A DNA stretch of 64,000 bases from Centroberyx gerrardi (lineage: Eukaryota > Chordata > Actinopteri > Beryciformes > Berycidae). The stretch spans positions 17,785,185-17,849,184 of the forward strand of contig NC_136004.1 of assembly GCF_048128805.1 (NCBI RefSeq), read 5' to 3'. The translations under genes were made by a program, and so were the position numbers. Below the pieces are notes generated by a model. It was not told the origin of the DNA, made no database searches, and saw nothing but the letters and a program-made list of their open reading frames with translations. This document shows positions 49,801-52,800 of this stretch, in pieces; position 1 is the first letter of the stretch, and every line of letters starts with the position of its first letter.

Positions 49801-52800
49801 TTAAAGAGCTGGTTAAAGAGTGATTAGAAAGCAACAGAGGGAAGTATGAGCCTCTGGCACAACCCTAACCTGAAAAAGTGGCTAGAAGTCTGGAACATTG
49901 TTAACTATAGGCCAGGATTATATCTGTTCTCATGCTGATCAGTCTCAAAATACTGACAGTTTAAAATAATGTTTAGAACCTTTGTCAGAAGGTGAGAGAG
50001 ACAGTTTGAGCAGGAGACCAAGGGGATGTCATAGTCAGGCTGTTGTTCCTCAGACAAAATGGCAAAAAGCACGGTCACTTTTTCCTACTCCTGGAAGTGT
50101 GTCCATTCAACACATTTTTCCTAACAGAACACATACCTGCATGCACACACACATATTGTACACACACTAGTGCTGGCCAGGACACGATCAGAATCCCATG
50201 GTATTAAAGGATTGGAATACCTCAGTGACAAATGGCAGTGAAGTCCCACACATAACCACAATCTGGCAAAACTGAATGACAGCTGAGATGGTCAAGCTTT
50301 GTTAAAATGAAGGGAGGGAGTAATGTAAGTAATTGCCAGCCAATCCACTGATATTGAGAACATTGGAACAACAACCATTCCCTTACTTCAAGAAGCTTAT
50401 CTGGATTAAAATGGGTCATGATCAGAACCTTAGTGGTTATAGGAGCATGAAGCCATTAAGAGAGAGCTGTACCATGCTGTTGCTGCGAGAAATGTTTCCC
50501 ATCAGAGAGGGAGCAGAGAAGGAGCGGAGTGTTGCAAAGGTGGGAGGGTGAGGGACAGGTACCGGCTCAGGCTCAGGTTTGGAATTCTGAGGTGCGTCGG
50601 TCCCATTGGATACAGACTCCGAGTCCTGGGAGCATGATTCAGGATCTGGAGGCACGCTTGATGGAGTACCCAGGGGTGCACTAGATGGCGTATCCTGGGG
50701 TGGATGGAATTGAGAACCCAGGGGTGCGCTAGATGGCGTATCCTGGGGTGCACGGGATTGAGTACCCAGGGGTGTGCTAGATGGAGTATCTGGGGGTGCG
50801 CTAGAGGGAATATCTTGGGGTGCACAGGATGGAGTACTCTGGGGTGCACAGGATGGCGTATCCTGGGGTGCATGGGATTGAGAACCCAGGCGTGCACTAG
50901 ATGGAGTATCCCGGGGTGCACGGGATTGAGTACCCAGGGGTGTGCTAGATGGAGTACCCGGGGGTGCACTAGACAGAATATCCTGGGGTGCGCAGGATGG
51001 AGTATCCTGGGTTAGGCTGGATGGAGTATTGCTTCCACATGGAATGGAAGGTGAGCTTTCAGGGCTGGGCAGTACGTGTATTGTAGGTTCAGGGAGCCCC
51101 ATTACCTGGCACAGGGCCTCCACTTGCCTCACCAGCCTCTCCTGCTGAATCCTCAGCCTCAGGTTCTCCTCCTGCAGGCTGGCCAGGACCTTGGCCAAAG
51201 GAGCCACCTGGGCTGCTGCCTCCTCCAGCCGGGCATCCACTCGCTTTCCAAAGGCCTGCAGGTCGCTGTGGATTTCCCCCACTGCACAGCGCAATGTTAG
51301 CTCAAAACTCCCTTCTGCAACCTGCTCCTCTTCATCCTCCACCTGCTCCTGAGCAAGCAGATCTCCAATCACCTCTTCCAGGCCAGACTCAGCACAAAGG
51401 CTATCTGGGCTGCCCAATGCCTCTGGAGCCTCCGAGGCTGGGAGGAAGTCCAGGTTCACCCCAGGCATGGCCAGGCCTGCTGCACTCAATGCCACCACTT
51501 ACACTGAAATGTCAGTCCTTTTTCAAGGAAATACAAAGTCCCTTTTTTCAAATCCACTCAAGTGTCCCTTTAAAGTTGGGATCTAAGACCAGAGAAATCA
51601 CAAGGTTGTGGCCTTTGCCTCAAATGAGGGGGATAGAAGGTTTCCTCTCTGTCTGCCTGTTTACAGAGATCCTCCAAAACAACACGCGTTCTTTATACCC
51701 CCAGCAAATCTCCCCTCTTTAGCGGCCTACACCCTGACAGCCAATGAGCATGCAAGGAATCCTGTTTCCAAGGCAGCAGTAGACCCGGCCCCCCTTTTTT
51801 TCTCAGGTGCCATGGACATGTCTATTTATCACTGGCCCAGCCATTATTCCACTGAGCCAGTCAGGCCTGGGGGACTGAGGCCTAGGGGGGAGTAGTGGCA
51901 ACAATTCAGAACCCCCCCCCCTCCCTCTTTCAACTTTCCTTTTATTTAGAGCCCTTGTCCTTCACACCTCGATTGGCAGGCAACTAGGGCTTTAGACGTG
52001 GCTCTGGGCCGAGTTATATATCAGTGCTTTACTCCTCTTAAAACTGTTTTTTAACAAAATGTAACCTCTGAGGCCTGACAAATTGGGTCAGTTGAGTTGT
52101 ATGACTCTGGTTCAGAACGCAGACCTCCGGAGGGAAGGTCAGTCCAGGAAGAACAGCGTGATTCGGGCAGTGGCAGAGCAGGCTGGGTGGGTGACCAGTG
52201 TGGTGAGGGAGAGCTGGGGCCCAGTTCTGCCAGGCTATGGGCAAGGCTCTTGGGAAGGACAGCTCAGCCCTTCTAGGATTTTCTTTTGGGCTTACTGACA
52301 TAGAACAGAACAGTGATCCTTCCAGCTTCTGCTCATGTGGATGCCTCAAGTGCTTTGTGTGTCAAGTTGAATGCTCTCCAAGAGTGAGATACAGGTCCAT
52401 GTCTTAATGTGTGTGTACGTTGCTCATACAGTAAGAAGTTCAAGTACATTTATCAAATGCTTACCGGGGCTATTTTGGCAGATTACAGCCGACGCAGATA
52501 AATCTAATGCTCATATATCTTTAAGCAGAGTCTTTGATTAGAAGTACAAGGTTGCATAACCATGTGCGATAAACGTGTGGCTTCTTGCCAGCATACCAAT
52601 ACCACATGAGAATTATACCGGTTTTAAAGAGCACACACAAAACGGTGGATATTCACTGTAACTTGTCAATACCCTAATAGCCTACAGTCACTGGACAACC
52701 AGTATTCTTATTTTTCTGTACACATAAACATAGTGCGCTAATCATCTAAGCTCTGAGTATTCAGGAATGGCATAACACAGAGTTCAGCAAACATCTCTTG

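Follow-up and report, generated by a model that had tools for sequence, protein, structure and literature searches.

In mammals, SMTNL2 carries a coiled-coil head in its first coding exon. For the SMTN family at large, the part of a 2023 comparison drawn on here (PMC10643981) describes a preserved exon-intron structure and gives as smoothelin features a 152-nt penultimate exon, encoding helices II-IV of the CH domain, together with two alternative tails. According to the same part, homology among SMTN, SMTNL1 and SMTNL2 is slight ahead of the CH domain, and there are statements of missing first exons. Mammalian SMTN-A is reported to have an intragenic promoter, located in exon 10 of Smtn (PMC3050715, in the part drawn on here). 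Among the literature matches listed, taken at their titles and abstract beginnings, no coil-bearing SMTN first exon is described, nor its kinship.

We analysed the smtn locus of Centroberyx gerrardi. The window is the whole 64-kb stretch NC_136004.1 / C8:17785185-17849184, with smtn on its minus strand. An intron of this gene very probably harbours the promoter and alternative first exon of a short smoothelin, whose head is homologous to the SMTNL2-type first coding exon and was inherited with it from a common ancestor. By position, this start would be the fish counterpart of mammalian SMTN-A: in both, to judge from what we draw on of PMC3050715, the start is internal to SMTN and precedes the exons for the smoothelin motif and the CH domain. 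An internal SMTN promoter is already known in mammals, so that the start described here is of a familiar kind. The two differ in where the first exon sits, which in the window gene is an intron, and in what it encodes, a long head whose coil is SMTNL2-like; the same part of that paper reports no such head for SMTN-A, a contrast between descriptions and not with mammalian sequence.

Layout of the smtn gene

The gene was read from 59299 downstream, where it comprises the following exons.

58673..59299, minus strand: long-form exon, VRDRMRKF..., from its reading frame and in-frame joins
56366..56439, minus strand: ELTLGLR...SSFK, the final long-form exon identified before the internal start, ending in phase 0 and reading on into 47790
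47602..47790, minus strand: shared exon METEPV...LDKM, first half of the smoothelin motif, phase 0 (PF12510, splice assembly)
47240..47315, minus strand: shared exon, second half of the smoothelin motif (PF12510, splice assembly)
45926-45747, 45300-45238, 45115-45037, 44944-44768 and 44670-44544, minus strand: shared exons (in silico assembly)
44177..44328, minus strand: shared penultimate CH exon, 152 nt (assembly; its length is the SMTN family value in the part of PMC10643981 drawn on)
42100..42247, minus strand: alternative terminal exon of E20 type, tail KTKNSS, open and in phase
40707..40860, minus strand: alternative terminal exon of E21 type, open and in phase

Exon 59299-58673 continues in frame into 56439-56366, and this exon in turn into 47790. 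The intron from 56366 to 47790 measures 8575 nt and would house the internal start; a small set of motif patterns, which makes for a weak test, found no further long-form exon in it. Translated with the first tail, the shared part matches PF12510 at 68.7 bits (cutoff 23) and the CH domain at 83.8 bits (cutoff 26); exon 47602 alone reaches 22.8 bits with PF12510, against the same cutoff of 23. In the PDB, the CH domain of the shared part finds smoothelin splice isoform L2 (2d87) at 4e-69 and SMTNL1 (2jv9) at 2.2e-58. With its 152-nt penultimate exon, its E20 (KTK tail) and E21 terminal exons and its PF12510 motif, the window gene agrees with SMTN.

A probable internal start

Within the large intron, the following features precede and include the internal exon.

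51741..51745, minus strand: inverted CCAAT box, 44-48 nt upstream of the TATA box (pattern scan)
51691..51697, minus strand: TATA box, TATAAAG (pattern scan)
51469..51690, minus strand: region from TATA to ATG with the 5' leader, 222 nt, no ATG (pattern scan), with a putative transcription start near 51665
50473..51468, minus strand: internal first coding exon, 332 codons if donor 50473 is used, phase 0 (open frame, assembly, codon bias of its tail)

The 229 nt from the TATA box to the initiator ATG at 51468 hold no other ATG; the context of the initiator is GGCCATGCC. Transcription would probably start about 30 nt downstream of the TATA box at 51697, and it is from this box that we place the start near 51665. 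On the minus strand, TATAAAR occurs at 14 sites in the 64 kb and lies 190-330 nt upstream of 3.1% of window positions, so that the TATA box is suggestive and supportive but not proof. Matches to CArG and MEF2 sites within 0.85 kb of the ATG each carry one mismatch.

The frame is open from the ATG to 50473, directly after which comes a GT. Assembled in silico onto the shared exons, the short form runs through 10 exons and 9 junctions with GT/AG borders, and encodes 728 residues with the E20-type tail or 730 with the E21-type tail. Two exons can splice to 47790, the last upstream long-form one and the head exon, since each of them ends in phase 0; the head exon would in this way be joined to the smoothelin-motif and CH exons. 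The earlier note had read a TATA box, a leader and a phase-correct exon of 332 codons as an independent start for a short smoothelin. All three elements are present, with TATAAAG at 51697-51691 and an ATG-free leader, and such a start fits the gene model; its position and motifs also suit an intragenic promoter of SMTN-A type.

The coil might instead belong to a cassette exon of the long smoothelin. Of the four acceptor-like sites listed for the region, the one at 51429 is in phase, as a cassette exon would need, but reads GGAG, and a better one, at 51437, has the wrong phase. The remaining pair, further up, precede the nearest upstream in-frame stop, a TAA at 51501-51499. With this stop and no good in-phase acceptor, the exon fits better as a first exon than as a cassette exon. 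The TATA box and the ATG-free leader just upstream also speak against a cassette exon, which we regard as very unlikely.

The head is homologous to SMTNL2-type heads

A genome search with the penultimate CH exon returned 36 places, five of which stand apart (E 4.6e-40 to 1.8e-17, 62-100% identity) from the next at 2.1e-9. These are the family genes. The head was found in three of the five, and in the window gene it lies within the internal exon.

51106..51348, minus strand: head, likely a coiled coil, homologous to SMTNL2-type heads (genome search, shuffles, alignment)

With the whole internal exon as query, we searched the genome (779 Mb, 278 contigs) and scored 121 of the 181 candidates. Among those scored, 29 places match at E<=10, the exon itself included. 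Only two of the 28 non-self matches cover the coil, C6:5834718 (42%, 4.6e-10) and C11:29338442 (44%, 4.4e-8); the other 26 start at residue 102 or later and fall mostly in the repeat that follows. Within the same scored set, no further place covers the coil, be it in the long-form exons or elsewhere.

Without gaps, the window head is identical to the C6 head at 32 of 65 positions and to the C11 head at 30 of 65, and those two agree with each other at 37 of 65. Its alignment scores of 143 (C6) and 140 (C11) compare with maxima of 84 and 95 for shuffles that keep the hydrophobic pattern; none of the 5000 made for each pair reaches either score. Of the long-form exons, 59299-58673 alone was compared with the same two heads, and it reaches 25 and 21. 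The coil resembles SMTNL2-type heads, as the earlier note had proposed, and not the long-form exon compared, and both the genome search and the shuffles put the similarity far above background.

Coiled coils are often alike, and unrelated heptad segments could have come to resemble each other by chance. We give this reading hardly any credence. Both coil-covering places in the genome (121 of 181 candidates scored) are paralogues of the family, and the shuffles, which preserve the pattern, fall short of the observed scores. A search of 177,635 PDB sequences gave no unrelated chain better than E 0.04 for the C6 head or 0.03 for the three-head profile, and no chain matches the coil region of the window head at E<=10; the E-values of these PDB searches are not on one scale. 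Moreover, 25 columns are invariant in the three heads, including a histidine within the first part and the proline that separates this part from the second. The head that the ATG at 51468 opens would consist of two likely helical segments, one on either side of this conserved proline, with a repetitive linker behind them.

The 3' end of the head exon

Three further features bear on where the exon ends.

50655..51029, minus strand: tandem array of about 15 copies of a 24-nt (8-residue) unit, within the exon (repeat analysis)
51105..51106, minus strand: alternative phase-0 donor CAG/GTAATG, with which the exon would end just after the coil (score 3.2)
51132..51133, minus strand: alternative phase-0 donor CTG/GTGAGG, which would cut the coil (score 5.1)

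Donors were scored with a simple matrix of approximate frequencies that we supplied ourselves. On this scale, donor 50473 (ATG/GTACAG) scores -1.3. The donor of the shared exon 47602 is also low, at -1.0, which indicates that weak donors do occur in smtn. The weakness of donor 50473, with two stronger phase-0 donors inside the exon, makes its 3' end uncertain.

The exon could thus be real and end after or within the coil, at donor 51106 or 51133, leaving the repeat and the tail as intron. Besides the better donors, both in phase 0, the repeat itself points this way. No protein-level constraint is seen in it: over 105 pairs of its 15 units, differences at the three codon positions number 170/277/199, the second position varying most. 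Nor does it carry codon bias, with 0.03 bits per codon in frame versus 0.16 in one shifted frame. The tail behind the repeat, 50655-50473, argues the other way, with 0.25 bits per codon in frame, -0.34 and -0.19 in the shifted frames and 0.16 in the best antisense frame, whereas 3000 intron windows reach a maximum of 0.18. The measure is noisy, since the true frame (0.22) is outdone by an antisense one (0.48) over the first 40 codons. Donor 51133, furthermore, would cut the homologous coil, and the SMTNL2-type head exons seem to continue past it, to codon 214 or 128 in C6 and to codon 192 in C11; in C6, the donor at codon 128 is better than that at codon 214. The tail of the head exon is not alike to the SMTNL2-type tails, as 944 and 584 of 2000 shuffles reach the respective scores. 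On balance, we consider an early end unlikely and lean towards donor 50473 as the predicted end of the exon.

The head exon and the next exon both end in ATG and have similar weak donors (GTACAG at 50473, GTACTT at 47602). The exon after the head exon also begins with an ATG, which could serve as a further start.

The other family genes

In the C6 and C11 genes, an ATG opens the head and in-frame stops lie upstream of it. Donor candidates, all in phase 0, follow at codons 24, 63, 128 and 214 in C6 (four) and at codons 20, 56 and 192 in C11 (three). E21-type CH tails lie downstream on the same strand, at about 25 kb in C6 and 18.5 kb in C11, and head and CH tail are presumably parts of one transcript in each gene. 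They form a pair at 99/98 in the CH tree. We call both genes SMTNL2-type, an assignment made from their E21-type tails and mutual pairing and not from an SMTNL2 reference sequence; SMTNL2 is not named among the PDB matches listed for their identity. An identification of the C11 gene as smtnl1 was dropped, its tail exon being of E21 type.

Taking these two genes as SMTNL2, the window gene shares with them a homologous head in an apparent first coding exon, phase-0 donor candidates and a CH domain. As in SMTNL2, its coiled-coil head stands in a first coding exon. Towards their ends the head exons show no likeness, however, and where SMTNL2 has an E21-type terminal exon only and no smoothelin motif, the window gene has smoothelin-motif exons, both tails and long-form 5' exons.

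Apart from the genes themselves, a stretch of the window at 22427-22651 is 69-81% alike in translation to one upstream of the C6 gene (about 3 kb into that locus); this is probably a dispersed repeat.

A second smtn copy lies on C2, at about 14.912-14.915 Mb. It has the smoothelin motif, with an ATG of its own at the corresponding place of the motif exon, and an E20-type KTKK tail. Its CH core is no closer to that of the window gene (49/67 identical) than the CH core of C6 is (50/67). About 5 kb upstream lies a transporter-like gene, which we take to be SLC35-like. As no long-form exons were found, this copy appears to be short-only.

The C16 gene (about 9.619-9.621 Mb) contains an E/K-rich exon and an E21-type, SMTNL2-like last exon. 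In the PDB, the closer match of its CH domain is SMTNL1 (2jv9, 1.1e-40), by a small margin over smoothelin (2d87, 4e-38). Its last exon sets it apart from mouse SMTNL1, whose last exon is E20-like in the part of PMC10643981 drawn on here. Compared with the window gene, it has a CH domain of the same family and, in place of a head, the E/K-rich exon. An HMM of the three heads, run with --max on six-frame pieces of at least 15 aa, detected no head in 47 kb around the C16 gene or in 49.5 kb around the C2 copy (best E in either, 5.7).

Ancestry of the head and order of events

That the internal head of SMTN and the SMTNL2-type head share ancestry is well supported, as judged from their sequence, their position in a first coding exon and their phase. 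Homology of the head to the SMTNL2-type first coding exon would place it in the common ancestor of SMTN and SMTNL2. Such a head fits the family layout in PMC10643981, and runs against the little N-terminal homology and, as far as the SMTNL2-type genes of this genome go, the missing first exons stated in the part of that paper used here.

The earlier note had suggested shared ancestry of SMTNL2-type heads and the internal start. The heads bear this out by their scores and shuffles. In the promoter DNA no similarity was found: compared with the stretches upstream of the C2, C6 and C11 genes, it gives four matches, the best at E 0.82, which is chance level.

The note had gone on to suggest that the SMTNL family may descend from the short-form promoter, the SMTNL genes having arisen from a duplicate that kept only this promoter and its first exon. 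The homologous heads, which both look like first coding exons, agree with such an origin, and the headless, short-only smtn copy on C2 indicates that a short unit can stand alone. The CH tree (10 rows, 69 columns), however, gives no order among SMTN, SMTNL1 and SMTNL2, the promoter DNA shows no similarity, and no head was detected in the C16 gene or the C2 copy. An ancestor with only the head and its start, to which SMTN would later have added its long 5' part, agrees with the data no less well. The same is true of common descent from a head-bearing gene, which explains the data as well as descent from the short-form promoter does; we regard the duplicate origin as improbable.

Returning to descent from a head-bearing ancestor, we tentatively propose one order of events, to which we give somewhat less than even chances. 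The ancestral family gene would have had a head-linker-CH architecture starting at this exon. The long N-terminus of SMTN-B would have been added upstream later, SMTNL2 would have kept the ancestral start, and SMTNL1 and the second fish smtn would have lost the head. The internal start of SMTN would then be the original promoter.

Altogether, the short smoothelin start and SMTNL2 are connected by the shared head, through which the succession of steps in the history of the family can be tested. The predicted short isoform would carry a coil absent from the long form, and may therefore have different partners or a different oligomeric state. The head could act as an oligomerisation or partner-binding module without counterpart in the long form.
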